Positions 6,186 through 32,756 of a stretch of DNA of 64,000 nucleotides are shown piece after piece (within the stretch, counting starts at the first letter, position 1; the number at the start of each line of letters is the position of its first letter). The notes under the pieces are model-generated. The model was not told the DNA's origin and ran no database searches. It saw only the letters and a list, made by a program, of their open reading frames with translations. A program made the translations under genes and the position numbers. The stretch is taken from assembly GCF_029338355.1 (NCBI RefSeq), contig NZ_CP119802.1, positions 1,860,001 through 1,924,000 on the forward strand, read 5' to 3'. The DNA is from Halosegnis marinus (GTDB lineage Archaea; Halobacteriota; Halobacteria; Halobacteriales; Haloarculaceae).

Positions 6186-6191
6186 ACCGAC

Positions 6192-7423: not shown

Positions 7424-7480
7424 ACCCCGTGGTCGGCCGTCCCCCACATGAGATTTCGGGGCGACGTTCGCCCCTTCGAC

Positions 7481-7514
7481 ACCCCTTTAAGCCACGGCGG
7501 AGTAGCACGGGGTA
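7481..7514 (+). promoter_or_regulatory. Leaderless promoter of the Nudix gene
   Basis: TTTAAG at 7486-7491 is centred about 27 bases before the ATG at 7515, the usual spacing for a leaderless haloarchaeal transcript. Confidence 0.55.
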
Positions 7515-8006
7515 ATGATAGAGGCCACGAGTGCGGGAGCCATCCTCTTCCGGGATACCCGTGGCCGGCGTGAGTACCTGCTGCTCAAGTCCCGGCCCGG
7601 CGACTGGGAGTTCCCCAAGGGCGGAGTCGAGGGCGAGGAGGAGCTACAACAAACCGCCATCCGCGAGGTCACGGAAGAAGCCGGAATCGAGGACTTCCGG
7701 CTGTTGGACGGGTTCCGCGAGGACTACGATTACGTGTTCGAGGCGAACGGCAACACCATCCACAAGACGGTCCACCTGTTCGTCGCGAAGTCGTTCGAGG
7801 CGTCCGCAGAGCTGTCGAAGGAGCACCGCGACCTGCAGTGGCGCGACTACGAGCAGGCCATCAACACCATCACGCAGGACGGGCCGCGCGACATCCTCCG
7901 GGAGGCCCACGAGTTCCTCGACGCGTACTTCGAGGCGCAGGAGGGCGACGCCGCGGAGGCCGAGGAGGTCCCCGAGACCGCGGAGGCCGAGGAGACCGGC
8001 GAGTAG
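7515..8006 (+). CDS. Nudix hydrolase, Ap4A-hydrolase-like
   Basis: 163 residues. A complete Nudix box runs from GGVEGEEEL to REVTEEAGI (residues about 36-58), fitting the GX5EX7REUXEEXGU pattern that binds the catalytic metal. The small early domain starting SAGAILFRD resembles bis(5'-nucleosyl)-tetraphosphatase members, which clean up Ap4A-type dinucleotides or similar pyrophosphates in the cytoplasm. The last ~25 residues are a low-complexity acidic tail rich in Glu and Ala. A TATA box at the right distance supports the ATG at 7515. The next gene follows after nine bases. Confidence 0.85.
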   Translation: MIEATSAGAILFRDTRGRREYLLLKSRPGDWEFPKGGVEGEEELQQTAIREVTEEAGIEDFRLLDGFREDYDYVFEANGNTIHKTVHLFVAKSFEASAELSKEHRDLQWRDYEQAINTITQDGPRDILREAHEFLDAYFEAQEGDAAEAEEVPETAEAEETGE

Positions 8007-8015
8007 GGGCGCCCC

Positions 8016-9023: not shown

Positions 9024-9520
9024 TCGTCCAGTTCCTCGACCTCGAGGTCGTCGCGCGAGACGGCGAGCCGGAAGGTGGGTACCGTCCGCTTGACCGTCTC
9101 GACGACGCCCTTGCTCGCGAGCGAGCGCAGCCCCGAGCGCACCTCGTCCACCTCGGGGTCGAACCCGGCGTCCCGGAGCTTGTGGAGGACGCTGACGACG
9201 CTCTCCGGGTCGTCGTCGCGGGCGGCCAGCACCTCGACGATGCCGACCTGAAGCGCCGGGACGCGGACGACGCGGGGGCCGTCCTCGCCCTCCCCCTCGA
9301 TGCCGGGGGCCACGTCGACCAGTTCGGCGGCCTCCGGCGTCGCGCGGATGAGGCTGTTCTCGTCGCGGTAGTAGAACTCCTTCAGCTCCCCCTCGAGGAA
9401 GCCGTGGACCTCGCTACCCGACTCCATCCCCCACCGCTCCTGTAGCTCCTTGTTCTTGGTCGGCTGGAGGGCCACCACGTCCGCCAGCCGTTCCTTCGCT
9501 TCCTCGGAGAGCTCGGTCAT
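9020..9520 (-). CDS. Haloarchaeal conserved protein (DUF5797-like), winged-helix-like
   Basis: 166 residues, acidic. It starts MTELSEEAKERLADVVALQ and contains two helix-rich segments resembling winged-helix units (residues 20-60, NKELQERWGMESGSEVHGFLEGEL, and 110-150, VVSVLHKLRDAGFDPEVDEVRSGL). A DNA-binding or regulatory role is plausible but not shown. I chose the ATG at 9520 over in-frame upstream codons because the product then begins like its relatives. It is convergent with the DUF5787-like gene. Confidence 0.65.
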   Translation of the reverse strand: MTELSEEAKERLADVVALQPTKNKELQERWGMESGSEVHGFLEGELKEFYYRDENSLIRATPEAAELVDVAPGIEGEGEDGPRVVRVPALQVGIVEVLAARDDDPESVVSVLHKLRDAGFDPEVDEVRSGLRSLASKGVVETVKRTVPTFRLAVSRDDLEVEELDD

Positions 9521-9621
9521 CGCTCGTCCGTAGAGGGGGTGCCCATTTCGGCCTAGCGGTTCCGGCCGCCCTCGCGCGCGGACCGCAAGACCCGTAAGCC
9601 GTCCCCCTATCGGACGCACGT

Positions 9622-10626
9622 ATGCAGACGAACCACGAGGTCAGGGTCGCCGACGCGCGCGACCTCTCGCTCGCGGAGCCCGCGGACCTCGTGGTCACTT
9701 CGCCCCCGTATCCGATGGTGGAGATGTGGGACGACTGCTTCGCCGCGCAGTCGCCCGAGGCCGCCGAGGCGCTCGCCGCCGACGAGGGCGACCGCGCCTT
9801 CGAGGCGATGCACGACGTGCTGGACGGCGTCTGGTCGCGGCTCGCCGACGCGGTCCGGGAGGGCGGCATCGTCGCCGTCAACGTCGGCGACGCCACCCGG
9901 AACCTCGACGAGTTCCAGCAGTACCCCAACGCCGCCGAGATAACGCGCCGGATGCGCGGCCACGGCTTCCGGACGCTCCCGGACCTGCTGTGGCGCAAGC
10001 CGACCAACTCCACGGCGAAGTTCATGGGCAGCGGGACGCTCCCGACGAACGCCTACCCGACGCTCGAACACGAACACGTCCTGCTCTTCCGCAACGGCGG
10101 GACGCGCGACTTCCCCCCGAGCGACGAGACGCGCTACGAGTCGGCCTACTTCTGGGAGGAGCGCAACACGTGGTTCTCGGACACGTGGGAGATACGCGGC
10201 GAGCGGCAGGCGCTCGCGGGGGAGGGGCGCGACCGCTCCGGGGCGTTCCCGTTCGAGGTGCCATACCGGCTCGTCTCGATGTTCTCGGTGTACGGCGACA
10301 CCGTGCTCGACCCGTTCTGGGGGACGGGCACCACGTCGCTCGCGGCGCTGGTCGCCGGCCGGTCGAGCGTCGGCTACGAGCGCGACGGCGACCTCGTGGC
10401 GGGGTTCGCGGAGGCGGCCGAGCGCGCGCCCGCGCTCTCCCGCGAGGTGGTCCGCGAACGGCTCGCCGACCACCGCGAGTGGGCCGCCGACCACGATCCC
10501 GGCTACGCGGCCGACCACTACGACTTCGGCGTGAAGACGAGCCTCGAACGCGGTATCCGCCTCTACGAGGCGACCGACGTGACCCGCGACGGCCGCGAGT
10601 GGACCGCGAGCTACGACCCCGTCTGA
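9622..10626 (+). CDS. Orphan DNA methyltransferase (beta-class, m4C/m6A type)
   Basis: 334 residues. Catalytic motif IV TSPPYPM is near the N-terminus (residues about 29-35), and the SAM-binding DPFWGTGTTSLAAL motif is near residue 230, the motif order of beta-class amino-methyltransferases. The SPPY form favours N4-cytosine but does not exclude N6-adenine. No restriction endonuclease gene lies next to it, so it is a solitary modification enzyme. Haloarchaea widely carry an orphan CTAG methyltransferase and avoid CTAG sites; this gene is a candidate for that enzyme by inference. CCGTAAGCCG about 25 bases upstream may serve as its TATA element. Confidence 0.85.
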   Translation: MQTNHEVRVADARDLSLAEPADLVVTSPPYPMVEMWDDCFAAQSPEAAEALAADEGDRAFEAMHDVLDGVWSRLADAVREGGIVAVNVGDATRNLDEFQQYPNAAEITRRMRGHGFRTLPDLLWRKPTNSTAKFMGSGTLPTNAYPTLEHEHVLLFRNGGTRDFPPSDETRYESAYFWEERNTWFSDTWEIRGERQALAGEGRDRSGAFPFEVPYRLVSMFSVYGDTVLDPFWGTGTTSLAALVAGRSSVGYERDGDLVAGFAEAAERAPALSREVVRERLADHREWAADHDPGYAADHYDFGVKTSLERGIRLYEATDVTRDGREWTASYDPV

Positions 10627-10660
10627 GTGGGTTTTTGCCGCGGGCCGCACAGTCCGCGGT

Positions 10661-11347
10661 ATGGACCTCGACTTCGACGCCTTCCGGCTCGCGGCCTCGA
10701 CGGCCGACCTCGCCGAGGAGCCGGCCGCGCGCGACCACGCCGACCTCGTGGAGTTCCGGATGGACCTCGCGGACGACCCCCTCGACGCGCTCGACGGCTA
10801 CGACGGGGAGCTGCCGCTGCTGTGTACGAACCGCGCCGCGTGGGAGGGCGGCGACGCGGCCGAGGACGGCCGGCTCGCGGCGCTCGAACGCGCGGCCGAA
10901 CACGACGCCGTCGTCGCCGTCGATGTCGAGGTAGCGGCCATCGAGGACGGCGCACAGCCGACGGTGGACCACGCCCACGACCACGGGGCGCGGGTCGTCG
11001 CCAGCGTCCACGACTTCGAGGGGACGCCGACGGGCGACGAACTCGCGCGCCTGCTCGCCCGCGCCGCGGCCGCCGGCGACGTGGGGAAGCTCGCCGTCAC
11101 GGCCGAGTCGGCCGACGACACGCTCCGCCTGCTCTCGGTGACGCGGGCGATGGCCGCCGAGGGCGCGACGGTGGCGACGATGGCGATGGGCGAGGCGGGC
11201 CGCCACACCCGTGCCGTCGCGCCGCTGTACGGGTCGCGAATCGGCTACGCGCCGGTCGCGACCGAGAACGCGACCGCGCCCGGCCAGTACGACCTCGCGA
11301 CGCTCTCGGACCTCGTCGCGCGGCTGTCGGGCGAATCCGGGGTTTGA
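10661..11347 (+). CDS. aroD: 3-dehydroquinate dehydratase, type I
   Basis: 228 residues, a class I Schiff-base dehydratase converting 3-dehydroquinate to 3-dehydroshikimate in the shikimate pathway. Features are VEFRMDL (substrate-binding Glu/Arg, residues about 30), the HDF histidine region VVASVHDFEGTP, the catalytic lysine in GDVGKLAVTAES, and the C-terminal GQYDLATL loop. GTTTTTGCC about 27 bases before the ATG may be its TATA element. DHQ synthase II and ADTH synthase, which act earlier in the same archaeal pathway, lie 2-4 kb downstream. Confidence 0.92.
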   Translation: MDLDFDAFRLAASTADLAEEPAARDHADLVEFRMDLADDPLDALDGYDGELPLLCTNRAAWEGGDAAEDGRLAALERAAEHDAVVAVDVEVAAIEDGAQPTVDHAHDHGARVVASVHDFEGTPTGDELARLLARAAAAGDVGKLAVTAESADDTLRLLSVTRAMAAEGATVATMAMGEAGRHTRAVAPLYGSRIGYAPVATENATAPGQYDLATLSDLVARLSGESGV

Positions 11348-11374
11348 TGCCCCTCGCGCGGTAAGCCGACGCCG

Positions 11375-11767
11375 ATGGACAGACGGGCGTGGCTCGCGGC
11401 CGGGTTCTCCTTCCTCCAGCCGGGGCTGGGCCACCTCTACCTGCGCGCCTACCGCCGCGCCGTGACGTGGTTCCTCGTGTGGGCCGCCGTCACCGCGGCG
11501 CTCGTCGACCTGCCGACGCCGGAGCCGACGCTCTCGGGCCTCGTCGCGGCCGCCACACAGCTGTTCGCCGCGCTCGGGGGGCTGGACCTGATCCCCTCGC
11601 TCGTCATCTCGGCGGTGACGGCGTTCGCCATGGTGGACGCCTTCAGGCTGGCCGAGGCGCGGATGCGGACCGACGACGACACTCCCCGGTGTCCGTCGTG
11701 CGGGAAGGAACTCGACGGCGACCTCGACTTCTGCCCGTGGTGTACGGCCGACCTCTCAGGCGAGTAA
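11375..11767 (+). CDS. Small membrane protein with C-terminal zinc ribbon
   Basis: 130 residues. There are two or three hydrophobic segments (residues about 7-40 and 55-90), then a C-terminal zinc ribbon with two CxxC knuckles (CPSCGKELDGDLDFCPWC). The GLGHLYLRAYRRAVTWF start resembles small haloarchaeal zinc-ribbon membrane proteins. No enzymatic motif is visible. The gene is 27 bases after aroD, possibly in the same transcript, and its end overlaps the convergent CPBP gene by 12 bases. Confidence 0.7.
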   Translation: MDRRAWLAAGFSFLQPGLGHLYLRAYRRAVTWFLVWAAVTAALVDLPTPEPTLSGLVAAATQLFAALGGLDLIPSLVISAVTAFAMVDAFRLAEARMRTDDDTPRCPSCGKELDGDLDFCPWCTADLSGE

Positions 11768-12538
11768 CGCCGCGACGCTCGCGCCGACGGCGACGACGTG
11801 AGCGAGCGCGTGCGCGACCATCGCCGCCTCCAGGCTCCGCCGCCAGTAGAGCCAGCCGAAGACGACGCCGGCGACGGTGTTGCCGAGTATCACGAACGCG
11901 AGCACCGGGAGCGTGAGCCCGCCGTAACTGCTCGCCGCGGCGGGGAGGTGGCCGACGCCGAACAGCACCGCGGAGACGAGTACGGCGGCCCAGCCGACCC
12001 CCGCGGAGAGGTCGCCCTCGGCGCCGTTCGCGCGCCACAGCAGATAGGCGACGAGCGAGAGGACGCCCCACCGCAGGAGGAGTTCCTCGGTGATACCCCC
12101 GTAGAGCACGCGGAGCGGGAGGCTCCCGAGGAGCGCTCCCACGGTCCCTTCGGGGGCGCCGCCCGCCGGCGTCGGGGCGACGAAGCCGGCGAGGAACAGC
12201 AGGACGCCGACGAGGACGCCGCCGGCGACGGCCGCGCGGGCCTGTCCGCGGAGCGCCGAGAGCAAGGGTTCGCCGTCGGAGACACGCTCGAGGAGGAGCG
12301 AGCGGAGGCCGACCCGCGGCGCGAGGCCGAGGCCGAGGAGGACGGCGACGGCCACGAGCGCGAGCGACTGGCCGGCCGTCGCGGCCATCACGACGGCGAC
12401 GGACTGGCCCGCGCCTTCGGCCGCCCGTTCGTAGGCCGCGCGGTCCGTGGTGAGGACGAGCGCGGCGACGCCGACGGCGCCGAGCGCGAACAGCGGGAGG
12501 AAGCGGCGGGCGGTGACGCTGGGGTCGCGGTCGGTCAT
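11756..12538 (-). CDS. CPBP-family intramembrane metalloprotease (second copy)
   Basis: 260 residues with about eight hydrophobic segments. CPBP motif 1 is EELLLRWG (residues about 150-157), motif 2 is the histidine in GVGHLPAAA, and a later HALAH supplies further histidines. It is clearly of the same family as the protein encoded at 6192-6968 but not a close copy. It is downstream of DHQ synthase II on the same strand with a 45-base gap. The substrate is unknown. Confidence 0.78.
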   Translation of the reverse strand: MTDRDPSVTARRFLPLFALGAVGVAALVLTTDRAAYERAAEGAGQSVAVVMAATAGQSLALVAVAVLLGLGLAPRVGLRSLLLERVSDGEPLLSALRGQARAAVAGGVLVGVLLFLAGFVAPTPAGGAPEGTVGALLGSLPLRVLYGGITEELLLRWGVLSLVAYLLWRANGAEGDLSAGVGWAAVLVSAVLFGVGHLPAAASSYGGLTLPVLAFVILGNTVAGVVFGWLYWRRSLEAAMVAHALAHVVAVGASVAALLA

Positions 12539-22258: not shown

Positions 22259-22597
22259 ATGACCGAGTACGAGGTCGAGTTCGTCGGGACGGGCGAGACC
22301 ATCACCTGCTCCGACAAGCGGACCATCCTCTCGCGGTGTCTGGAGGAGGGTATCGCCCAGGAGTACTCCTGCCGCGTCGGCATGTGTCTCGCCTGCTCGG
22401 CGGAGATAATCGAGGGTGAGGTCGAACAGACCGTCGTGACGAAGCGCGGCTTCACCGAGGAGGAGGCCGAGAAGTACGCGCTGACGTGTATGGCCCGCCC
22501 GCAGTCCGACCTGAAGCTCGACCGCGGGAAGTACCCGCCGAGTATCGAGGACGCGGATGCCGTGGAGGACGCCGGCTCCGCGTTCGCGGACGACTAG
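22259..22597 (+). CDS. Plant-type [2Fe-2S] ferredoxin
   Basis: 112 residues. Cluster ligands are in CRVGMCLAC (Cx4Cx2C, residues about 38-46) and a fourth Cys about 30 residues later (ALTCMARP), the plant-type [2Fe-2S] pattern. The N-terminus is short, without the large acidic insertion of the main haloarchaeal ferredoxin. It sits head-to-head with the geranylgeranyl reductase and probably supplies electrons to it (inference from context). Its stop overlaps the stop of the convergent secreted-protein gene. Confidence 0.88.
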   Translation: MTEYEVEFVGTGETITCSDKRTILSRCLEEGIAQEYSCRVGMCLACSAEIIEGEVEQTVVTKRGFTEEEAEKYALTCMARPQSDLKLDRGKYPPSIEDADAVEDAGSAFADD

Positions 22598-23451
22598 CTC
22601 CCGGTCTCGGTCGCCGTGGCGGTCGGGGTCGCCGTTTCCGAGGCCGACTCCCACGGCGGGGTCTGGTCCTCGTTGAGGCGTTCCGTTCCTCCCGACCCGC
22701 TCTGCTTCTTCGTCTCGAAGTCGAACTTCGTGTTGACGTAGGTGCCGTTGTTCTCGGTTACAACGGCGACGAGGTCGGCGCTGCTTCCGCGGGTACTCGA
22801 CTGCTCGACGAACTCGTCGTCGCTCGGGACGTAGTAGACGTAGGTCTCGACGGTGAAGTTCCCCGTATCGACGTTGCCGGACCCCTTGAACACGACTTCG
22901 TCCTCGCCCGGTTCGGCCTCGCCGTCACCGCTACCGCCGCCTGTCGCCGGCCGCTCACACGTCACGGTAAGCGTCTTGTCGTAGCGGGTCGCGTCCACGC
23001 CGTCCGTCTCGACGCCGAGCGTCACGTCGAGGGTCACGGTGTCGACCTCGTTCCCGCTGGGGTCACAGACCCCGGATACGTCCGCACGGACGACTCCCGA
23101 CTCCCCGACCGCGAGGTCGTCGTCGAGGTCCAGCCCGTCGTCGACAGCCCGCACAGACGTGCCATCGCTCGTCTCGATGCTCACGCGCGTCACGGTCATC
23201 TCGGAGGCGAACTGGTTCGTCACCCGCAACAGCGGCGTGTCAGCACACGACTCGTCCGGCTGGGTCCCGCTTCCCGGTATCTCGCGACACTCGACGGTCC
23301 GGTCCTGCAGCCCGAGGAAGGCGCTCTCGTCGTCCACGACCGCCACCGAGACCCCGCGGTCGACCGTCGCACTCGTGAAGCCGAACGCGCCGCTCGCGAA
23401 GACGGCGACGGCGGCCACGGCGACGACGGCGAGCGCGAGGCGGCGGGCCAT
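22594..23451 (-). CDS. Secreted DUF1102/TasA-like protein
   Basis: 285 residues. It has an N-terminal hydrophobic segment (about residues 4-24), then GAFGFTSATVDRGVSVAVVDD, which parallels the GAFTSVSANRTVSVNVADD stretch of the tandem array 1 kb away. A beta-rich extracellular domain follows, with a cysteine pair-like pattern (VECREIP, ESCADTP, GVCDPSG, TVTCERP). The C-terminus is a Thr/Ala/Pro-rich stretch (TATPTATATETGS) that stops without a membrane anchor, whereas the relative at 27365 has such a linker followed by a helix. One base separates it from the upstream regulator gene, so they are cotranscribed. Assignment to the TasA/camelysin-like group is inference. Confidence 0.65.
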   Translation of the reverse strand: MARRLALAVVAVAAVAVFASGAFGFTSATVDRGVSVAVVDDESAFLGLQDRTVECREIPGSGTQPDESCADTPLLRVTNQFASEMTVTRVSIETSDGTSVRAVDDGLDLDDDLAVGESGVVRADVSGVCDPSGNEVDTVTLDVTLGVETDGVDATRYDKTLTVTCERPATGGGSGDGEAEPGEDEVVFKGSGNVDTGNFTVETYVYYVPSDDEFVEQSSTRGSSADLVAVVTENNGTYVNTKFDFETKKQSGSGGTERLNEDQTPPWESASETATPTATATETGS

Positions 23452-23452
23452 C

Positions 23453-24058
23453 TCAGGCGTCGTGTGCCGGCGGGCTCTCGCCCCGCCCGAGCTGCATCGA
23501 GTGGTTGTAGTACGTGTGGACGGCCGCGGAGATGGCGAGCGTCGTGACGGCGAAGACGCCCCACGCGAGGTCCGGCAGAAGGACGAACGGCCACGCGTTC
23601 GCGCCGACGGCCGCGAGCAGGCCGACGTTCACGGCCGCGAGCCCGAGGTAGTACTGGCTCCACGGGATGTCCTTCCCCTGGACGACCTCCAGGTAGAGGT
23701 CGAGGTTCTCCGCGGCGTCCGACAGCGCCACCTCGCCGGCGCGCTCGTCGAACTCCACGACGCCCTTCTCGTCGAGCTTCGGCAGGTGGAACTGCTGGAG
23801 CGAGGTGTACACCCGCTTTCGCTCCGCGCTCGTCACCTCCGCCGGCTCGGTGTCGTTCTCCCAGGCGGCGATCTGCCGCGACAGCCCGCCGATGTCCGTG
23901 TCCTCCACGCGCTTCAGGTGGTGGATGGCGTACCGCCGGCGGTGGTTGCTCAGCAGCTCGAACGTCTCGTCGGGCGTGAGGTCCGCGGGCGCGGACTCCT
24001 CGGGCTCGCCGACGCTCGGCTCCTCGGTCGCGGCCGTTCCCCCGGCGGTCGCGCTCAC
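23453..24058 (-). CDS. Winged-helix regulator with two C-terminal membrane segments (DUF7344-like)
   Basis: 201 residues from a GTG. After an acidic leader, residues about 25-110 form an ArsR/PadR-like winged helix (LTPDETFELLSNHRRRYAIHHLKR, ERKRVYTSLQQFHLPKLDEKGVVEF), a layout common among haloarchaeal regulators. Two hydrophobic helices follow (about 140-160 and 165-185), placing it in the membrane. It is the first gene of the leftward unit and faces the DUF1102 array across a 359-base intergenic region rich in inverted repeats, so it probably controls the surface-protein cluster (inference). Confidence 0.72.
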   Translation of the reverse strand: MSATAGGTAATEEPSVGEPEESAPADLTPDETFELLSNHRRRYAIHHLKRVEDTDIGGLSRQIAAWENDTEPAEVTSAERKRVYTSLQQFHLPKLDEKGVVEFDERAGEVALSDAAENLDLYLEVVQGKDIPWSQYYLGLAAVNVGLLAAVGANAWPFVLLPDLAWGVFAVTTLAISAAVHTYYNHSMQLGRGESPPAHDA

Positions 24059-24417
24059 GCGGTCTCACCCCGGCGATGGTTCCGCCCCCCTCGTTCGTCC
24101 CCCTGCGCCCCCGTCGGATGTGTTAGTAGTCCCTGCATAGGTACCCCCGTACCGCGGCACTTCTCTCGTCAGACACGTATAGCCTGACTGGTATAATCCT
24201 TTCCTCAGTTGTCCGATACCGGATATGATTTCTCCGGCATCAGGGACCGCTATACCGGTTTCAGGCCGTGCTTACCGGTCCGTATAGCCGACTCTGACGC
24301 GTCACAAAGGCGACCTGTGACACCGGATGGCGTCTCAATACAATGGGTGTAGGGTGTCTGGGCTGGAGTAAGCGCGGCCCGCCAGCGAGGCGGGGTCGTG
24401 CGGGGGAAACTACGACA
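24059..24417. promoter_or_regulatory. 359-base regulatory region of the DUF1102 cluster
   Basis: No gene is seen here. The stretch is richer in A/T than its surroundings and contains GTATAGCC (24177-24184), GGTATAATCC (24190-24199, TATA-like), an inverted pair GCTATAC (24249-24255) / GTATAGC (24282-24288), and a second inverted pair GTCACA (24301-24306) / TGTGAC (24316-24321) with nine bases between. A hairpin CCCGCC-agcga-GGCGGG (24378-24394) and a purine run CGGGGGAAAC precede the first array ATG. This looks like a multi-site control region serving both divergent units. Confidence 0.55.
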
Positions 24418-25011
24418 ATGGAACGACGCAAATTCCTGATCGGTGCGGGCTCGCTGGCGGCCGGCGCGGCCGCTGCTACTGGTACTGGTGCGTTCACGAG
24501 TGTGAGCGCGAATCGAACAGTCACGGTCAACGTTGCTGGCGATGCCAGCGCGCTGCTGGCAATTGAGCGTGCTGAGGAGGGTGGAAGCACGACTCCAAAC
24601 GCGCAAGACTACGTGAATATCGAGAGCGACAACACGGTCAAGCTCGACTTCACCGGCTCAGACAACGGGGCCTCCGGCATTAACGACGACGCGAGCACGA
24701 AAATCGCGAACCTCCTAGACATCACGAATCAGGGAACCCAGACCGTTGAGGTGTACCCCAGCGAGGATCAGCCGGGGAACATCGCGTTCTTCGCCGAGGG
24801 CCCGGACACGAACACCGGTACTAACGGCAATCCGAACTACCCAGATCCTGACAACGACGGCGATCAGGATCAGGGCGCCGGATTCAGCGATGACGATCCG
24901 GTTATCCTTGGGACCGGTGATACGGTGGAGAATATCGGAGTCCGGATGGAAGGTGACGCGACCGGAACCACGCTCACGCTCATAGCCGAAGAAACCGACG
25001 CGAGTAACTGA
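24418..25011 (+). CDS. DUF1102 (TasA/camelysin-like) secreted protein, array copy 1
   Basis: 197 residues. The signal segment begins MERRKFLIGAGSLAAG (twin-arginine RRKFL, then an Ala/Gly-rich hydrophobic core) and ends GTGAFTSVSANRTV, which resembles the A-F-S/T-D/S cleavage region of camelysin/TasA proteins. The mature part has the array's common core (NLLDITNQGTQTVEV) and a very acidic Asp/Asn-rich loop (YPDPDNDGDQDQ). Codon use is visibly less GC-biased than in flanking housekeeping genes. Three stop codons in a row (TGA TAA TAG) end the frame. Export by Tat and maturation by the SipW-like peptidase encoded at 29074 are inferences. Confidence 0.78.
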   Translation: MERRKFLIGAGSLAAGAAAATGTGAFTSVSANRTVTVNVAGDASALLAIERAEEGGSTTPNAQDYVNIESDNTVKLDFTGSDNGASGINDDASTKIANLLDITNQGTQTVEVYPSEDQPGNIAFFAEGPDTNTGTNGNPNYPDPDNDGDQDQGAGFSDDDPVILGTGDTVENIGVRMEGDATGTTLTLIAEETDASN

Positions 25012-25021
25012 TAATAGGGCC

Positions 25022-25717
25022 GTGGAACGACGCAAATTCCTAATCGGTGCGGGCTCGCTGGCGGCCGGCGCGGCCGCCGCTACCGGCACGGGCGCGTTCA
25101 CGAGTGTGAGCGCGAACCGAACCGTCTCGGTGAACGTCGCCGACGACAGCAACGCACTACTATCGCTCGTCCCCGGCGAATCGGGACTGGTCACACAGCA
25201 GGACGGAACGCTGCAGGTCAATATCGACGGCACCCAGTCGGCGGGGACCGGCGCGAACATGGACGCCGTGACGACCATCGGCGACCCCGAAAACCCGGCG
25301 GACGACCACGCGTTCAAGATCGTCAACCAGGGGACCCAGAGCCTGATGTTCAAGATGAATTACTTCTTCGAGAACACGGGCTGGCTGGAGAACCGCGGCA
25401 AGGGCCAGTCGCACCTGAACTTCGAGGTGTTCGACGTGAGCACCGGTAGCACCGACGCGGCCGGCTCGTACGCCGAGGACTACCCCCACCAGAGCTACAA
25501 CAGGGACTCCTCGCTCGGCCAGCCGGCGGGGAGCGGCTTCGGCTCGAACAGCGACTACTACCGGTTCGACGTGGGCGAGGAGCTGTACATGGTCCTCACC
25601 GTCGACACGACGGGCGAGAACGCCTCGCTCGACGACGACCTCTCGGGAACCGCGGTCATCGAGGCCGGCACCGAGACGAGTCAGGACTCCTGGTACCCGT
25701 CGGACCCGCCCGCCTGA
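25022..25717 (+). CDS. DUF1102 (TasA/camelysin-like) secreted protein, array copy 2
   Basis: 231 residues from a GTG ten bases after copy 1, with no hairpin element at this junction. The first 38 residues are the same RRKFL signal segment. The mature domain has the MDAVTTIGDP and FKIVNQGTQSLMFKMNY core, an aromatic-rich loop, and DVGEELYMVLTVDTTGE near the end. It is most like copy 4 in the mature part (TTIGDP, NQGTQ, DTTGE), while its signal DNA is closest to copy 3, pointing to segmental exchange between copies. Confidence 0.78.
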   Translation: MERRKFLIGAGSLAAGAAAATGTGAFTSVSANRTVSVNVADDSNALLSLVPGESGLVTQQDGTLQVNIDGTQSAGTGANMDAVTTIGDPENPADDHAFKIVNQGTQSLMFKMNYFFENTGWLENRGKGQSHLNFEVFDVSTGSTDAAGSYAEDYPHQSYNRDSSLGQPAGSGFGSNSDYYRFDVGEELYMVLTVDTTGENASLDDDLSGTAVIEAGTETSQDSWYPSDPPA

Positions 25718-25731
25718 ACTCTACCGCTGTC

Positions 25732-25792
25732 ACCCACGTTCGGCGTACGGCGGTTCGACTCCGCCGGTGGGTTTCCCTTCGGGGGTACAACT
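25732..25792 (+). repeat. Intercistronic tRNA-T-arm-like element, copy A
   Basis: It folds by eye as CGGCGG (25748-25753), seven-base loop TTCGACT (25754-25760), CCGCCG (25761-25766), stacked directly on ACCCAC (25732-25737) / GTGGGT (25767-25772), with a ten-base bulge on the 5' side. Loop and stem match the T-arm of a tRNA (GGTTCGACTCC fits the B-box pattern), on an acceptor-like helix. A small CCCTTCGGG hairpin (25775-25783) overlaps the purine tract before the ATG at 25793. The sequence from CCCACG to GGGGGTA is identical to copy B. It could be an RNase Z/P-type processing site or a translation element. Confidence 0.6.
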
Positions 25793-26404
25793 ATGCAACG
25801 ACGCAAATTCCTGATCGGCGCGGGCTCGCTGGCGGCCGGCGCGGCCGCCGCTACCGGCACGGGCGCGTTCACGAGTGTGAGCGCGAATCGAACCGTCTCG
25901 GTGAACGTCGCGGACGACGCTGACGCGCTCCTCGCGCTGGAAGGCGCGGGAGAGGGTAACGATGCCTACCTGACTGAGGACGGCACCGGCGGAGAGCTCG
26001 CGTTGGCTCTCGATTCGTCCAACAACGCCATCGACGGAACGGGAGTCAACGAGGAGGCAGTCACCGTAATCAATGACCTGTTCACGGTTCAGAATCAGGG
26101 TACGCAATCCGTGGCGATCAGCGGCACGAAGAGCGGCGACTACACGGACAACGTCGTCTTCGGCGTGAACCAGGCCACGGGCGGTTTCTCGAGCAGAAAC
26201 ACGTTCCATACGCTCGACCCGAGCGCACCGACGGGTATCTCGTCCTCCCTGCTGCTGGGCGGCCAGCAACCTGTCGGGAACCAATCGTGGACGCTTTCCA
26301 CCGGACAGAGCGCCTACGTCAGCGTCCTCATCGACACGCGTGGTATCGACCCCACGGGCACGCTCATCGACAGTATGACCATCGAAGCGGTCGCCAACGA
26401 GTAG
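25793..26404 (+). CDS. DUF1102 (TasA/camelysin-like) secreted protein, array copy 3
   Basis: 203 residues. Signal segment as in the other copies except Met-Gln at the start (MQRRKFLIG). The mature core is VNEEAVTVINDLFTVQNQGTQSVAI followed by a Ser/Gly/Asn-rich variable part and QSAYVSVLIDTRG. It is preceded by the 61-base hairpin element and followed eight bases after the stop by the second copy of that element, so it is the only cistron flanked on both sides by it. The mature part is the shortest after copy 1. Confidence 0.78.
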   Translation: MQRRKFLIGAGSLAAGAAAATGTGAFTSVSANRTVSVNVADDADALLALEGAGEGNDAYLTEDGTGGELALALDSSNNAIDGTGVNEEAVTVINDLFTVQNQGTQSVAISGTKSGDYTDNVVFGVNQATGGFSSRNTFHTLDPSAPTGISSSLLLGGQQPVGNQSWTLSTGQSAYVSVLIDTRGIDPTGTLIDSMTIEAVANE

Positions 26405-26410
26405 ACTTCA

Positions 26411-26471
26411 GCCCACGTTCGGCGTACGGCGGTTCGACTCCGCCGGTGGGTTTCCCTTCGGGGGTAAAACA
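26411..26471 (+). repeat. Intercistronic tRNA-T-arm-like element, copy B
   Basis: Second copy of the element, identical through about 54 bases (26412-26465) to copy A, 679 bases downstream of it. The helix is CCCAC (26412-26416) with GTGGG (26446-26450) and CGGCGG-TTCGACT-CCGCCG between. The base before CCCAC is G here but A in copy A, so the outer pair is lost. The identity continues, with few changes, into the signal-segment codons of array copy 4, making a repeated unit of about 170 bases. Confidence 0.6.
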
Positions 26472-27185
26472 ATGGAACGACGCAAATTCCTGATCGGCGC
26501 GGGCTCGCTGGCGGCCGGCGCGGCCGCTGCTACTGGTACTGGTGCGTTCACGAGCGTGAGCGCCAATCGAACCGTCTCCGTGAACGTGACCGGGGACGAG
26601 TCAGCACTGCTGGGAATCACGGCTAACGACGCTCAATCCGTCGGCGAGTACGTCGGAGGTACGGACGGCGGACAGCTGACAATCGACCTCGACGAGGACG
26701 AGAACGGCGATGCCGAGGGGCTGAATCAAGACGCGGTTACGACCATCGGCGACCCGGACGACTACGAAACCGAGTACGTCTTCAAAATCGAGAACCAGGG
26801 GACACAGCCGGTGTTTATCCAGCTCAGCTACGACTTCACCGATGCGAGCTGGGCTGACGCCGGTAAGGACCAGTCGTACCTCGAATTCATCGGCCGCGGG
26901 AACGAACTTGAGCGTGTGGTCGGCGAGTACCGTCACCGACACGTAGGGACGTTCCCGATGCAGCGCCCCGACGGCACCACCGTCGGTGGAGGTCCGGCAG
27001 GGGGCTCCGGCCGGTTCGGTCAAAAGCAGCAGATATACGGATGGACCCGGAGCGACGAGTATCAGACTCTCGACGTGGGCGAGTCCTGGTACTTCACTAT
27101 CCTCGTTGATACGACCGGTGAGGACGCACAGCCGAGCGACGACCTGTCCGGAACGCTGAATATCCACGCCAACGCCGAACTCTAA
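26472..27185 (+). CDS. DUF1102 (TasA/camelysin-like) secreted protein, array copy 4
   Basis: 237 residues, the longest copy. RRKFL signal segment, then LNQDAVTTIGDP, FKIENQGTQPVFIQLSYDF and DVGESWYFTILVDTTGE, a layout shared with copy 2. The middle carries an extra basic/aromatic loop (ELERVVGEYRHRHVGTFP). Part of its signal DNA (GCTGCTACTGGTACTGGT) matches copy 1 rather than copies 2 and 3. It is the last gene of the tandem array; the next cluster gene has its own promoter. Confidence 0.78.
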   Translation: MERRKFLIGAGSLAAGAAAATGTGAFTSVSANRTVSVNVTGDESALLGITANDAQSVGEYVGGTDGGQLTIDLDEDENGDAEGLNQDAVTTIGDPDDYETEYVFKIENQGTQPVFIQLSYDFTDASWADAGKDQSYLEFIGRGNELERVVGEYRHRHVGTFPMQRPDGTTVGGGPAGGSGRFGQKQQIYGWTRSDEYQTLDVGESWYFTILVDTTGEDAQPSDDLSGTLNIHANAEL

Positions 27186-27298
27186 CACGACGTGTCGCAC
27201 GAGCAGGAAAGTACGATTCCGGCCGGCACCGCAAGGCCTCCGGGACCGTTGCCGAACCCGAGACGCCACTCGGGTCGCACGCGCGCCACCGAGTAGGG

Positions 27299-27340
27299 TT
27301 CCATACTGGAATCGTCGCCATCGCCGTCGATGGCTATAAT
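27299..27340 (+). promoter_or_regulatory. Promoter and dyad upstream of the anchored DUF1102-like gene
   Basis: CTATAAT (27334-27340) lies 25-31 bases before the GTG at 27365, the expected spacing for a leaderless mRNA. A dyad TTCCA-TAC-TGGAA (27299-27311) lies about 20 bases further upstream, in the region where BRE-proximal regulators bind. Confidence 0.5.
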
Positions 27341-27364
27341 TCCGGGCTCCGAATTCAACAACTC

Positions 27365-28195
27365 GTGAACAGGAAGGCCGCACTGACACTCGTACTCGCC
27401 TGCGCCGTCGCCGCGACGGTGCTCCCGTCAGCCGCGGCACCGTGGAGCGACACCGTCAACGAGGACCTCACGCTCCAGCCCACGACGGGCCCGAACGGCG
27501 CGTACGCGTATTACGAGGACGAGGAACTCGTGCTCGGCTTCGGCGCGGCGAACCCGAACGTCGAGGGTGAGGGCGTGCCCGCGGACACGGTGACGCCGTT
27601 CGACCGCGTGTTCGTGGTCACGAACACCGACGAGGACCCCGGGCGGGTGTGGCTCACGGCCGACACGGACGCGGTCCTGTTCTACAACGACACGGACCCG
27701 ACCGACTCCGTGACCGGCGAGGCGAACGCGGTCGTGCTGGCACCGGGCGAGAGCCTGACCGTCGGCGTGCTCGTGGACGCGACGGACGAGCGCGTCGAGG
27801 CGACGAGGGAGTTCACCCTCCACGCCGAGCCGGTCGAATCGGGAACCGAACGCACGGAAACGCCAGGCACGCCGGTCGAGACGGAGACGCCCACGGCCAC
27901 GTCGACGGCGACACCCACGTCGACGGCGACGCCCACACCGACCTCCACGGCCACCGGGACGGACACGCCGGCCGGGGCGACGGACGTCGGGACGTCGACA
28001 CCCACGCCGACGCCGACCGACACGCCGGCCGGCGAGACCGGAACGGCCGGTACCGACGGCGATACGGCGACGCCCACGCCCGAACAGTCGCAGGGGGCGT
28101 TCGGCCTGCCGCCGCTCGCCCTGTCGCTGGGCGGCGTCGGGCTGCTCGGCGCTCTCGGAATCGTTATCCTGCTCCGTTCCGGCTTGCTCGCGTGA
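27365..28195 (+). CDS. DUF1102/TasA-like protein with Thr-rich stalk and C-terminal membrane anchor
   Basis: 276 residues from a GTG. A Sec-type signal helix (residues 5-25, ending PSAAAPWSDTV, close to the SDT of camelysins) is followed by a domain of about 135 residues with ADTVTPFDRVFVVTNTDEDPGRVWL, the anchored counterpart of the F-x-I-x-NQGTQ core. Residues about 165-235 are a Thr/Pro/Ala stalk suited to O-glycosylation, and a single C-terminal helix (GLPPLALSLGGVGLLGALGIVILL) ends in a short basic tail. It probably stands on the cell surface. The stop overlaps the rhomboid start (GTGA). Confidence 0.68.
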   Translation: MNRKAALTLVLACAVAATVLPSAAAPWSDTVNEDLTLQPTTGPNGAYAYYEDEELVLGFGAANPNVEGEGVPADTVTPFDRVFVVTNTDEDPGRVWLTADTDAVLFYNDTDPTDSVTGEANAVVLAPGESLTVGVLVDATDERVEATREFTLHAEPVESGTERTETPGTPVETETPTATSTATPTSTATPTPTSTATGTDTPAGATDVGTSTPTPTPTDTPAGETGTAGTDGDTATPTPEQSQGAFGLPPLALSLGGVGLLGALGIVILLRSGLLA

Positions 28196-29007
28196 GCCGG
28201 GAGCCGTTCCTCGCCGCCCTCCGTCGCCGCGCAAGGGTCGCCGACCTCCTCGCGCTCGCGGCCGTGCCCGCGGCCCTGCTCCTCGTGTTCCGGCTCCCCG
28301 AGCCCACGCGTCGCGGACTCGCGCTGTCGCACGCCGACCCCTCGCTCGCGTCGGCGTACACCGCACACTTCGTCCACCTCGACGCGGGCCACCTCGCCGC
28401 GAACCTCGCGGTGTACGCCGTCCTCGCGCCCGTCGTGTACGCGTTGTGTGCGCTGGCGGGTCGCCGCCGGCTGTTCCGGGTCGCGTTCGTCACCTACCTC
28501 GGCGCGTTCCCGTTCGTGCTGTCCGCGCTGAACCTCGCGCTCCCGCGCGACGTGCTGGAACTCGGCTTCTCGGGCGTGGCGATGGCGCTGTTCGGCCTCC
28601 TGCCGCTGGCGCTCGCGGAGTACGCCCGGGCGACGTTCGACGACGACCTCGACGCGCGGGCGTCGCCGGCCCTCTTCTTCGCCGCCACGAGCGTCGCCGC
28701 GCTCGCCGCCGCGCCGTTCGACCCACGGACGGCCGGCGTCTCGCTCGCCTCCCTGCTCGCGGCGGCGCTGTACTCCGAGCGGGCGCTCGGCTCCGTCCGG
28801 CTGCCGGCGCTCGGGGACCTGCGCCGGGCGGCCGACCGGACGGGCTACTTCGAACTGGTCGCGCTCGCGGCCGTGTTGCTCGTCGTCGTTCCGTTCGTCG
28901 CCCTCCGGGGCGCGGCGGTCGGGGCCGCGAACCCGTACGTCCACCTGCTCGGGTTCGCGCTCGGCTACGTCTCGACGTACGTCACCGCGCTCGTCGTCGC
29001 GGAGTGA
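28192..29007 (+). CDS. Rhomboid-like intramembrane serine protease
   Basis: 271 residues from a GTG that overlaps the previous stop. Six or seven hydrophobic segments are visible. Rhomboid signatures are HLDAGHLAANLAVY (the HxxxN helix), GFSGVAMALFGLL (the GxSG catalytic serine) and YVHLLGFALGY (catalytic histidine helix). The protease may therefore be active, cutting membrane-anchored substrates within or near the bilayer. Its coupling to an anchored surface protein makes that protein or its relatives possible substrates (inference). Rhomboids are not a standard part of bacterial SipW loci. Confidence 0.75.
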   Translation: MSREPFLAALRRRARVADLLALAAVPAALLLVFRLPEPTRRGLALSHADPSLASAYTAHFVHLDAGHLAANLAVYAVLAPVVYALCALAGRRRLFRVAFVTYLGAFPFVLSALNLALPRDVLELGFSGVAMALFGLLPLALAEYARATFDDDLDARASPALFFAATSVAALAAAPFDPRTAGVSLASLLAAALYSERALGSVRLPALGDLRRAADRTGYFELVALAAVLLVVVPFVALRGAAVGAANPYVHLLGFALGYVSTYVTALVVAE

Positions 29008-29073
29008 CCGGGACGGCCGCCCCGGCGTGGGAAAACTACATATCGGTGACACCCCTCGCCCCGACAGGACGCG

Positions 29074-30213
29074 ATGAAACGGGGGCTCGTTCGGGGGGGT
29101 GAGCTGTTGGTCGTCTGCTTCGTCCTCGCGATGGTGGCGGGACAGTTGCTCGGCCAGCCCGTGCTCTTGAGCTACGTGACTACCGGGAGCATGTCGCCGA
29201 CGCTCGACCCCGGAGAGGGGTTCGTCGCCGTTCCCTCGGCGGTCGCCGACGTCGAGGAGGGCGACGTGGTGACGTTCCGCGCCGAGGAACTCAACGGCGG
29301 CGGCCTCACCACTCACCGGGTCGTCGGCGAGACGGAGCGCGGCTACGTGACGAAGGGCGACGCCAACCCCTTCACCGACCAGGACGGCGACGAGCCGCCC
29401 GTCAAGGAGAGTCAGATCGTCGCCGTCGCGTGGCAGCCGGGCGGGCAGGTGCTCGCGGTGCCGTTTGTCGGCACGCTCGTCGAGGGGTCGCGCATGGCGC
29501 TCGCGGGGACCCAGCGCCGGCTCGCGGCCGCGCTCGGCACCCGCTCGCTGCTCGGGACGACGGGGCTCGCGTACCTCGTCTTCGCGCTCTCCGTCGTCTG
29601 GTACCTCGTCGAGGCGTACCGCGACCGCGGCGCGGGCCGCGAGCGGACGCGCGACCGGTCGCGCGACGACGGCTTCGACCCGCGGGTCGTCGTCGCCCTG
29701 CTCGCGCTCGTCGTCGTCGCCTCGGCGACGGCTGCGATGGTCGTCCCCGCGGGCGCACAGAAGTACGGCGTCGTCAGCGCCGAGAGCGACGCGCCCGGCC
29801 CGCGCGTCATCGAGACGGGTACCGAGGAGACGGTCACCTACCCGGTGGGCAACGGCGGCGTGATTCCCGTCGTCTCCTTCCTCGAACCCGGAAGCGAGGG
29901 GGTGGCGGTCGAACCGGGCGAGGTCAGCGTCGGCCCGCGGGCGGTGCGGAACGCGACCGTGACCCTCTCCGCGCCGCCGGAGACGGGCTACTACCGGCGG
30001 TTCGTCGTCGAGCACCGCTACCTCGCGCTGCTCCCGCGGAGCCACATCCGGGCGCTGTACGGCGTCCACCCGTGGCTCCCGCTCGTCGCCATCGACGCCC
30101 TGCTCGCCGGTTCGTTCTACGCGGTCGGGACGGCGATGGTCGGCTCCGGCCGCGTCCGGTCGCGCAAGCGCGAGGGGCGGAACACGGGCCTCCTCGGGGG
30201 GATACTGCCGTGA
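29074..30213 (+). CDS. SipW-like (ER-type) signal peptidase I with extended C-terminal domain
   Basis: 379 residues. After one membrane helix (about 8-28) the catalytic serine is in TGSMSPTL (Ser39). The general base is histidine (TTHRVV, His81) rather than lysine, as in ER-type/SipW peptidases, and box E reads TKGDANPFTD. A second helix follows (about 157-177). Unlike a minimal peptidase it continues with a third helix (about 205-222), a ~100-residue beta-rich external domain and a fourth helix near 340. GAAAACTACATA (29031-29042) may be the promoter. It lies downstream of six TasA-like genes and overlaps the DUF5305 gene (GTGA), so it probably matures those proteins. Confidence 0.82.
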   Translation: MKRGLVRGGELLVVCFVLAMVAGQLLGQPVLLSYVTTGSMSPTLDPGEGFVAVPSAVADVEEGDVVTFRAEELNGGGLTTHRVVGETERGYVTKGDANPFTDQDGDEPPVKESQIVAVAWQPGGQVLAVPFVGTLVEGSRMALAGTQRRLAAALGTRSLLGTTGLAYLVFALSVVWYLVEAYRDRGAGRERTRDRSRDDGFDPRVVVALLALVVVASATAAMVVPAGAQKYGVVSAESDAPGPRVIETGTEETVTYPVGNGGVIPVVSFLEPGSEGVAVEPGEVSVGPRAVRNATVTLSAPPETGYYRRFVVEHRYLALLPRSHIRALYGVHPWLPLVAIDALLAGSFYAVGTAMVGSGRVRSRKREGRNTGLLGGILP

Positions 30214-31313
30214 CCGACGCCGAACTCCGCGCCCGGCGGCTGCTCGCGGACAACCTCGCCGTCGTCGCGCTCGTCGTGCTCGTCGTCGCGGGCGCGGGGG
30301 CGTTCCTCACCTACGACGCCCACCTCGCCGACGAGACGACGACCGAGACGGAGACGGTCGTCGTCTACGAGACCGTGCCCGCCTTCACCCACGGCGCGAC
30401 GGTCCGCCGCGAGAACCCCGTCTTCGAGGTCGGGACGCGGCTGGAGGAGCGGGGCCAGTACTACACCCGTATCGCGCCCGTCGTCGACGGGGAGTTCCGG
30501 TTCACCTACGTCGCGGACGACGGCGACACGACCGTCCGGCTGGCGGCGGACCGGGTCATCCGCGCCGTCGCCGAGGACGGCACCGTCCTGTGGGAACAGC
30601 GCCGGGCGCTCGACACCGCGGAGGCGACCGGCCTCGCCCCCGGCGAGACGGCGACGGTCCCCTACCGCGTGAACGTCTCCGAACTCCAGTCGCGGGTCGA
30701 CAACGTCACCGAGGCGCTCGGCACCGGCGGCTCCGGCGTCGAGACGGTCGTCGCCGTCGAGGTCCGCATGACCGGCACCGTCGGCGGGGAGCGCGTCAAC
30801 ACGACGCGGACGCACGACCTCGAACTGTCGGCCGGGGACGGGACGTACAGCGCCACGGGCAACGCCTCGGGAACGACGGAGCGCCGCGAGCGCGTTCGCA
30901 CCGTCCCCGCCGAGGCCGGCCCCCTCGCCGCGACGGGCGGCCCGGTCCTGCTCGCCCTCGGCCTGCTCGGTGGCGGCGCGCTCGCCGTCGGACGGCGTCG
31001 CGGTCTCGTCGAGGTGAGCGACGCCGAGCGCGCGCGCCTCGCCTTCGCCGGGGAGCGCGCGGAGTTCGACGAGTGGATAACCGCCGCCGAGCTCCCCGAC
31101 TCCGCGGTCGGCGACCCGGCCGACCACATCCGCGTCGCCGACCTCGAAGGGCTGGTGGACGTGGCCATCGACACGGACGGTCGGGTCATCGAGGACGAGT
31201 CGCGCGGCGGCTTCTTCGTGGTGAGCGGCGACCGGACGTACCGCTACGACCGGCCGGCACCGGCGGACGGGGACGACCCGCTCGAACCCGCGATACGCCG
31301 CGTCGAGGACTGA
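30210..31313 (+). CDS. DUF5305-like membrane protein
   Basis: 367 residues from a GTG overlapping the signal peptidase stop. One N-terminal helix (about 14-36) and one later helix (about 245-265) bracket an extracellular domain of ~200 residues (VYETVPAFTHGATVRRENPVFEVG, YYTRIAPVVDGEFRFTY). The C-terminal ~100 residues are cytosolic and acidic with Arg-rich start (GRRRGLVEVSDAERARLAF). I recognise it as the DUF5305 type that accompanies SipW-like peptidases in Halobacteria. Function is unknown; a partner of the peptidase or an assembly factor is a reasonable guess from coupling. Confidence 0.7.
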   Translation: MTDAELRARRLLADNLAVVALVVLVVAGAGAFLTYDAHLADETTTETETVVVYETVPAFTHGATVRRENPVFEVGTRLEERGQYYTRIAPVVDGEFRFTYVADDGDTTVRLAADRVIRAVAEDGTVLWEQRRALDTAEATGLAPGETATVPYRVNVSELQSRVDNVTEALGTGGSGVETVVAVEVRMTGTVGGERVNTTRTHDLELSAGDGTYSATGNASGTTERRERVRTVPAEAGPLAATGGPVLLALGLLGGGALAVGRRRGLVEVSDAERARLAFAGERAEFDEWITAAELPDSAVGDPADHIRVADLEGLVDVAIDTDGRVIEDESRGGFFVVSGDRTYRYDRPAPADGDDPLEPAIRRVED

Positions 31314-31319
31314 CCCCGG

Positions 31320-32756
31320 CTACGCGCCCGGATACGTGTCGGCCCACGGGTTCGCGCGCTCGAAGGCGGCCGCCACGGCCAGGAGCGACTCCTCGTCGTA
31401 GCGCCGGCCGACGACCTGCAGTCCGACGGGGAGGCCCTCGTCGGTCAGCCCCGCCGGCACGGAGACGACGGGGTGGCCGGTGACGTTGAACACCCACGGG
31501 AGCGACCAGTCCGTGAGCGTGCCGTTGGCGGGTTCGCCGGCTATCTCCGTCGGGTCCGGCTCCGAGAGCGGGAACGGGGGGACGGCGAGCGTCGGGCAGA
31601 CGAGCGCGTCGTGGTCGCCGATGGCGTCGTTCACCGCGTCGTACATCCCGGTCCGGACGACGTTCTGGACGTTGTGCTCGACGGCCTCGTGGCCCCGTCC
31701 GACGGCGACCGTCGCCTTCAGCGAGTCGGACACCTCGCAGTCGGGGGCGGCGAGGTCGACGCCGTGCTCCTCGTCGATCTCTCGCGCCAGCGTGGCGAAC
31801 TTCGCCGTCGCCTGCACGGAGAAGGCGTGGTTGAGGTCGCCCTTCGCGGGCCCCTCGACCGCGACCTCCTCGACGGTCGCGCCCGCGTCGGCGAGCGCGT
31901 CCACCGCGTCCCCGACCGCGTCGGTCACCGCCTCCTCGACGGTGAACAGGTCGAGGTCGGGCGAGTACGCGACCGATACCTCCGCCGTCGGTCGCTCCGT
32001 CGCGCCGCGGTAGTCGGCGTCGGGCGCGGGCACGGAGAACGGGTCGCCGTCGTCCGGCCCGACGAGCACGTCGAGCATCACGGCGAGGTCCTCGACCGAC
32101 CGCGCCATGGGGCCGACGACGCCCGTCGGGGTGTGCGAGGAGAAGGCGTCCGGGCGGCGCGCGCTCGGTATCAGCCCGAACGAGGGCTTCACCGAGACGA
32201 CGTGACAACAGGAGGCGGGGACGCGGAGCGACCCGCCCACGTCCGACCCCGTCGCTATCGTCGCCAGGCCGTCCGCGAGCGCCGCCGCGCTCCCGCCCGA
32301 CGACCCGCCCGCGATGCGGTCCGGGGCGAACGGGGTTCCGGTGGGGCCGACGAGTTCGTTGTCCGTGCGGGGCTTGTGGCCGAACTCGGGCGTGTTCGTC
32401 TTGCCGAGCGGCACCGCGCCCGCGGCCTCCAGCCGCTCGGTGATGAGCGCCGACTCCTCCGGCACGTGGTCGGCGAACGGCTTCGCGCCGAACGTCGTGC
32501 GGACGCCGGCCTTGTGCGCGTAGAGGTCCTTCAGCGCGAGGGGAACGCCGTGGAGCGGGCCGAGGTCCTCGCCCGCCTCCGCGGCGCGTTCGGCCTCCCG
32601 TGCGGCCTCACGCGCCTCCTCGGCGATGACGGTGATGTAGGCGTTCGTCCCGCGCGCCTCGATACGTTCGAGCATCGCGTCGACGAGCGCGACGGGCGAC
32701 AGGTCGCCGGCCTTCACCGCGTCGGCGACGGCGACGGCGCTCCGGTAGGTGTCCAT
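31320..32756 (-). CDS. Amidase (amidase-signature family)
   Basis: 478 residues. Amidase-signature catalytic triad region: the Lys in GVPLALKDLYAHK, the Ser-rich GGSSGGSAAALADG, and the nucleophile serine in TGSDVGGSLRVPA. It hydrolyses an amide bond in the cytoplasm; the substrate is unknown. GatA is unlikely because no gatB/gatC lies near and the specificity loops differ. It lies 42 bases downstream of the thioredoxin-reductase-like gene on the same strand and is convergent with the DUF5305 gene, with a six-base gap. Confidence 0.85.
   Translation of the reverse strand: MDTYRSAVAVADAVKAGDLSPVALVDAMLERIEARGTNAYITVIAEEAREAAREAERAAEAGEDLGPLHGVPLALKDLYAHKAGVRTTFGAKPFADHVPEESALITERLEAAGAVPLGKTNTPEFGHKPRTDNELVGPTGTPFAPDRIAGGSSGGSAAALADGLATIATGSDVGGSLRVPASCCHVVSVKPSFGLIPSARRPDAFSSHTPTGVVGPMARSVEDLAVMLDVLVGPDDGDPFSVPAPDADYRGATERPTAEVSVAYSPDLDLFTVEEAVTDAVGDAVDALADAGATVEEVAVEGPAKGDLNHAFSVQATAKFATLAREIDEEHGVDLAAPDCEVSDSLKATVAVGRGHEAVEHNVQNVVRTGMYDAVNDAIGDHDALVCPTLAVPPFPLSEPDPTEIAGEPANGTLTDWSLPWVFNVTGHPVVSVPAGLTDEGLPVGLQVVGRRYDEESLLAVAAAFERANPWADTYPGA

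Follow-up and report, generated by a model that had tools for sequence, protein, structure and literature searches.

Fibers of the Tat-fimbria (tafi) class, in which Tat stands for twin-arginine translocation, were named by Galeva et al. (iScience 2025) according to a later paper that cites their work (PMC12687288), and the tafi gene content used here for comparison is that given by the citing paper, by NCBIfam family names and by the title of PDB entry 9P0A, "Structure of Natrinema sp. J7-2 Tafi pilus". In Bacillus, the TapA-SipW-TasA system encodes a dedicated signal peptidase of the endoplasmic reticulum (ER) type together with its fiber subunits, and donor-strand fibers are known in TasA and AbpA (PMC9674648). 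We analyzed an 8.7 kb gene cluster at positions 22594-31313 of a 64,000-nucleotide stretch of the Halosegnis marinus genome (NZ_CP119802.1, positions 1,860,001 to 1,924,000; hereafter, the window), which an initial annotation had labeled a TasA/camelysin-SipW system. Judged from its genes and from structural models, the cluster is very probably (a probability of about 0.87) a tafi-type locus in the broad sense. This type of locus is widespread in haloarchaea and paralogous to canonical taf, and it is not a new TasA/SipW system. The tafi core is already known; the variant features are a subunit array with homogenized leaders and a dedicated rhomboid.

Relation of the locus to Tat-fimbriae

A TafC-like gene and a DUF7344 regulator gene lie on the reverse strand and are followed by eight forward-strand genes, which encode four array subunits (P1 to P4), a TafF/DUF1102-like anchor, a rhomboid, a signal peptidase and a DUF5305 protein. 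The initial annotation was correct in listing, at the coordinates that it gave, one leftward and five rightward secreted proteins, a winged helix-turn-helix membrane regulator, a rhomboid, a signal peptidase with a His base and a DUF5305 protein, and also in describing close gene junctions: the regulator and TafC-like genes are 1 nucleotide (nt) apart, and 4-nt overlaps occur at anchor/rhomboid and peptidase/DUF5305. Its assignment of the secreted proteins to the DUF1102 type holds for the anchored protein (27365-28195) only, since neither P1 to P4 nor the leftward protein has a Pfam DUF1102 match, and these proteins instead match NCBIfam Taf models under their cut-offs. The NCBIfam matches in the window comprise TafC, TafE/TafA, TafF and an archaeal signal peptidase, the last over its cut-off, together with weak SipW and weak rhombosortase matches.

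We assign the cluster to tafi because the array is homologous to the Tafi pilus and the neighboring genes are tafi parts. The likeness to 9P0A and the NCBIfam TafA/C/E/F families covers the Tat leaders, the GTGA/F site, the subunit and anchor fold, DUF7344, the peptidase, DUF5305 and the TafC/TafF partners, whereas the window is distinguished by a four-gene array with homogenized leaders, a co-directional, operon-like layout that includes the rhomboid, and equivalog scores under the cut-offs. A scan based on the peptidase yielded 63 haloarchaeal loci, most of which have the same gene order, and the arrangement recurs in many haloarchaeal genera. Canonical taf genes exceed the NCBIfam cut-offs in genomes G010 and G025, and a copy in G053 lies near the cut-off. 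These canonical loci contain DUF7344, peptidase, TafC and TafF genes of the same types (and, in G010, DUF5305), and canonical TafC bears a LamG lectin domain. Because G025 and G053 hold both types, the window type is a paralogous sister of canonical taf.

We found no literature description of a dedicated rhomboid or of a leader-homogenized array, although tafi is represented here by a citing paper and the original could mention a rhomboid. The initial annotation's view that the combination is undescribed therefore fails for the core, which is the known tafi system, and stands, within this limit, for those two features.

Homology, fold and leaders of the array subunits

The four tandem subunits lie on the forward strand. 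P1 (24418..25011) starts the array at 24418 with a Tat leader and has 197 residues (TafE 5.6e-20, TafA 1.1e-8, both under cut-offs); P2 (25022..25717) has a GTG start and 231 residues (TafE 2.4e-14); P3 (25793..26404) has 203 residues (TafE 3.2e-18); and P4 (26472..27185) has 237 residues (TafE 1.7e-15, TafA 2.3e-11). An array profile built from 65 homologues produced one clear match among PDB sequences, namely 9P0A (E 2.4e-36; P4 matches 9P0A at 2.6e-11). A Foldseek search with an AlphaFold model of P3, in which residues 15-34 are disordered, likewise placed 9P0A first (7.5e-5), followed by the Sulfolobus thread filament 7PNB and AbpA 7UEG. The model of the anchor has a predicted local distance difference test (pLDDT) score >90 over most of residues 30-140, followed by a stalk and a helix at 249-270 that corresponds to a transmembrane (TM) segment, and its top matches are 7UEG, 9P0A and 7PNB. 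The closest solved structures are thus three archaeal surface filaments, 9P0A first, in keeping with the initial annotation's general inference of an AbpA-like extracellular fiber matured by an ER-type peptidase. AbpA and the Sulfolobus threads share beta-sandwich subunits with the window proteins and are the next-best fold matches, but they come from other archaea and their sequence identity is only ~10-16%. In other haloarchaea, the pilin of locus L090 is 73% identical to the solved Natrinema pilin and stands before anchor, peptidase and DUF5305 genes, as does the window array.

The array signals are of the twin-arginine type (RRKFL), a feature absent from the initial annotation, as are the near-identical leader DNA and the empty sites in congeners described below. 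Both twin arginines (R3 and R4) and the pair A25 and F26 are invariant among the 65 array homologues. In 9P0A, 188 of 215 residues are modeled, and if all 27 missing residues are N-terminal, then the first modeled residue is F28, directly after GTGA. Because this start and the invariant A25-F26 fit one another, we infer cleavage between A and F, leaving a conserved N-terminal tail of ~15 residues. By analogy with TasA and AbpA, this tail may act as a donor strand.

The rhomboid and the anchor tail

The anchor gene (27365..28195, forward strand; DUF1102 4.8e-8, TafF 1.4e-12) encodes a signal peptide, a beta-sandwich, a Thr/Pro stalk and a C-terminal TM helix, and its GAFGL motif plus TM segment (28094..28177, forward strand) is a candidate recognition site for the rhomboid encoded next to it (28192..29007, forward strand). 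The latter is a rhombosortase-like rhomboid protease with Ser127 (GFSG), His251 and an HxxxN motif in TM2 (TIGR03902 7.4e-6, under cut-off); its Pfam score, like that of the window Peptidase_S26, lies slightly under the Pfam cut-off. The active-site Ser (GxSG) and His (H..G) are conserved in the family. Among 116 haloarchaeal genomes searched at a threshold of 170 bits, the rhomboid family has 45 matches, 31 of which directly precede a fimbrial peptidase gene of the same orientation, 48-226 nt away, and 39 of which lie within 12 kb of one. Among genomes of the genus, only the two with this locus carry the rhomboid. These linkages, read from gene neighborhoods, indicate that the rhomboid is a dedicated part of the locus.

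Anchors from loci that carry the rhomboid have a motif such as EPGGFGL, EPAGFGL or EPSGID, then a TM helix and usually RR, while those from loci that lack it are mostly without the motif. The C-terminal motif is present in 19/21 anchors of the former group and 2/11 of the latter (Fisher 9e-5, with a regular expression written after the sequences had been viewed). The anchor of locus L054 has the motif and no adjacent rhomboid; since G075, probably its genome, carries a family member elsewhere, this exception supports the pairing. Of 15 rhomboids compared with NCBIfam, 11 match the TIGR03902 rhombosortase and no further family. Rhombosortase and its GlyGly-CTERM targets, as in Vibrio and Shewanella, offer a possible parallel, a rhomboid beside a single target with a motif-TM-basic tail. 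GlyGly-CTERM is found mainly in Proteobacteria, adjacency of rhombosortase to its target is typical of single-target genomes, and Haft's original argument used that pattern (Haft, PMC3237569). The window differs in that its motif is GFG/GFD rather than GlyGly and its rhomboid scores below the equivalog cut-off. Archaeosortase A, which acts with PGF-CTERM anchors that have a similar tripartite tail, is an unrelated enzyme, and the window anchor has no PGF-CTERM match. Taken together, the anchor tails and the weak rhombosortase match suggest that anchoring in these archaea may involve a step resembling that of rhombosortase. If rhomboid and anchor truly form a pair, a sortase role for the enzyme is about as likely as not.

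Several observations count against such a role. The window rhomboid misses the TIGR03902 equivalog (26 bits under a cut-off of 84), and the window anchor is an atypical example, with GAFG in place of GGFG and an end, LLRSGLLA, that holds one basic residue versus the usual RR. In addition, several tafi-type loci are without a rhomboid, so the enzyme is not required for fimbriation in general. The best-surviving alternative is that the rhomboid is a regulator rather than a sortase, cutting the anchor's TM segment so as to shed fimbriae or to destroy misassembled anchors. A catalytic rhomboid that is translationally coupled to the anchor gene through the 4-nt overlap would suit this function, ordinary rhomboids do shed membrane proteins, and the sub-threshold rhombosortase score points the same way. 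However, the restricted linkage to the locus and the tripartite motif of adjacent anchors, mostly lacking where there is no rhomboid (the anchor of L113, in a congener, is of the ArtA-type PGF-CTERM class), suit a sorting pair better, and we regard shedding as a real but rather less probable explanation. The C-terminal part of the rhomboid frame in locus L072 (5451-6392) is divergent, in a manner reminiscent of a frameshift.

Leader recombination among P1-P4

The first 40 codons of P1-P4, which span the Tat signal, the A25/F26 site and the start of the mature tail (24418-24537, 25022-25141, 25793-25912 and 26472-26591, forward strand), are nearly identical, with a leader amino acid identity of 0.97 as compared to 0.24-0.39 for the bodies. 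The likeness extends to codon choice: at identical residues, codon identity in the window is 0.78 in leaders versus 0.50 in bodies, and in the congener locus L034 it is 0.93 versus 0.43. Codon bias was considered as the cause of this likeness and rejected, since leaders of the window and L034 agree with one another at background level only (0.53, the same as bodies; 0.46 to other loci). In FastTree trees, the leader DNA of the four window genes forms one clade (0.94) and that of two L034 genes forms another (0.71). The body tree is arranged differently: P1 groups with Haloarcula locus L041 (0.88), P3 groups with L050 (0.73) inside a clade of eight (0.91), and P2 and P4 form a pair (0.97). Within the leaders, sites conflict as well, with 17 sites (the 5' region and codon 9) grouping the genes as 12/34 and five consecutive synonymous sites in codons 19-24 grouping them as 14/23. 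These data indicate that the leaders have been homogenized by recombination and that the bodies are old and polyphyletic. The most economical explanation is gene conversion that is confined to the leaders and the DNA upstream of them.

It could instead be supposed that the leaders are alike because the genes were duplicated in tandem recently and their bodies then diverged fast. The tandem arrangement fits this, and the sister relationship of the P2 and P4 bodies makes one duplication likely. Yet the P1 and P3 bodies are nearer to other genera (0.44 identity to L041 and 0.48 to L050, respectively) than to their own paralogues (0.24-0.29), and the site blocks are incompatible with one another; we therefore consider this explanation improbable.

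Homogenization is not universal: most other loci are at background, the exceptions being the window, L034 and, more weakly, L084, L087, L035 and L054. In L034, the common tract extends further upstream, in two stretches of ~310 nt in total, and 650 nt between two array genes of that locus (6740-7397) contain no evident gene and may be the remains of a decayed subunit gene. In the window, a segment upstream of P3 and P4 only (25728-25792 and 26407-26471, forward strand) is alike at 59/65 nt and occurs at only two places in the genome. We rejected the idea that its hairpin, which resembles an acceptor/T-arm, is a tRNA-like minihelix, as folding z-scores are -0.3 to -1.4 and there are two genomic copies only; we treat it as a duplicated upstream segment.

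Weighing the fimbrial assignment

Two considerations weigh against the assignment of the cluster as a whole. The window proteins fall far under the curated cut-offs of the canonical tafA-F equivalogs (TafE 72 vs 155 bits, TafA 44 vs 190, TafF 47 vs 420, TafC 37 vs 410), and this is therefore not a canonical taf locus; and the P3 monomer model is of moderate confidence only (pLDDT 71). The cluster might instead make a surface coat or secreted adhesins that do not polymerize, on the grounds that relatives bear LamG, VWA or beta-helix domains and that the filaments here are predicted from genes, but a direct homologue has been solved as a pilus (9P0A) and the anchor joins the same fold to a stalk and TM segment, making this possibility very unlikely. 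Least likely of all is the TasA/camelysin-SipW matrix fiber of the initial annotation, in which SipW would mature jelly-roll subunits exported by the general secretory (Sec) pathway: it can draw on the SipW-type Ser-His peptidase beside its substrates, a weak SipW match (1.6e-8) and the donor-strand precedent, but we reject it given the invariant Tat leaders, a peptidase score of 34 bits against the 190 of the SipW equivalog, and the absence of any TasA structure from the 50 best PDB fold matches of the P3 model, which are led by Tafi, thread and AbpA structures. Of the structures proposed for comparison with that label, AbpA 7UEG is among the top matches of the P3 and anchor models and TasA is not among P3's 50 best. 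The Bacillus system shares with the window a dedicated ER-type peptidase encoded beside the subunits and the donor-strand principle; it differs in its export leader and in a subunit that is not close in fold, and it has no rhomboid and no DUF5305.

A model for assembly and its implications

The tafi-type reading, based on homology, architecture, leader recombination and rhomboid linkage, leads to the following model. The array proteins would be exported folded by Tat, and the locus peptidase would cut after A25 (GTGA/F) to expose an N-terminal tail beginning with F, which would probably serve as the donor strand received by the following subunit. The TafC-like protein would be a tip or minor subunit, and the TafF/DUF1102-like protein would be the base of the fiber, held in the membrane. 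A platform in the membrane would consist of DUF5305 together with the extra domain of the peptidase, and regulation would fall to the DUF7344 protein. The rhomboid would probably process the GFG/GFD-TM-basic tail of the anchor in the manner of a rhombosortase. Recombination among paralogues would keep leader and donor tail alike in all four subunits while their bodies differ, and the subunits could then be interchangeable in one heteropolymeric fiber.

Tafi pili have been described only recently, and the locus bears on how they are anchored and on how several subunits may share one fiber. We tentatively propose, as something possible though short of probable, that haloarchaea own a rhombosortase-like C-terminal processing step whose single substrate is the basal protein of a fimbria exported by Tat, along with a recombining leader/donor-strand cassette that keeps otherwise unrelated subunits compatible, so that fiber composition can change without breaking assembly. 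If true, the rhomboid-anchor pair extends rhombosortase-type sorting to archaea, and leader-only recombination is a simple way to hold a polymerizing end constant while the exposed body varies.

Presence and absence within the genus

The 8.7 kb unit is missing from four congeners at one site and is present at the same site in G003, where two array genes are clear. The flanking ferredoxin and amidase genes adjoin each other in G002 and G004 (window 22599 to 31328), with 2 nt between the matches and the stop codons together; in G001 and G005, the two genes are only ~150-180 nt apart. Trees of the flanks group the occupied G003 with the empty G002 and G004, and because of this grouping the unit has probably been lost or replaced at least once. 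A second tafi-type locus lies elsewhere in G002 (L113; G002:C6:143000-161000, 6008-12327) and encodes an 810-residue beta-helix subunit, a PGF-CTERM anchor, a peptidase and DUF5305, with no rhomboid. The genus thereby offers a natural experiment, in which a genome has a rhomboid with a GFG-type anchor, no rhomboid with a PGF-CTERM anchor, or no locus.

Remaining genes of the cluster

The TafC-like secreted protein (22594..23451, reverse strand; 285 residues; NCBIfam TafC 1.6e-9, under cut-off) consists of a signal followed by a GAFGFTSATVDRGVSVAVVDD tail and a Thr-rich C-terminus. Its divergent position is kept across loci, and it is likely a tip or minor subunit. In other loci, LamG, VWA or beta-helix domains are fused to Taf-type heads in tandem arrays (L071 13810-15354; L035 7006-8937; L044 8302-9858; L054 6073-7320), a domain content consistent with adhesive fibers of variable composition. 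The DUF7344 winged-helix regulator (23453..24058, reverse strand; Pfam PF24035 2.1e-30) has two TM segments predicted from hydropathy and is found in canonical taf loci too. The DUF5305 membrane protein (30210..31313, forward strand; Pfam 1.7e-52) has two TM segments, adjoins the peptidase in most loci, and is likely its assembly or platform partner. The peptidase itself (29074..30213, forward strand; TIGR02228 9.9e-15, over cut-off) is an ER-type signal peptidase I with Ser39, His81 and Asp96, and the catalytic motifs, including the ER-type Ser-His pair, are kept in 62/64 sequences. It has a conserved C-terminal extension made up of further TM segments, as judged by hydropathy, and an extracellular region; Bacillus subtilis SipW, at ~190 residues, is without such an extension.

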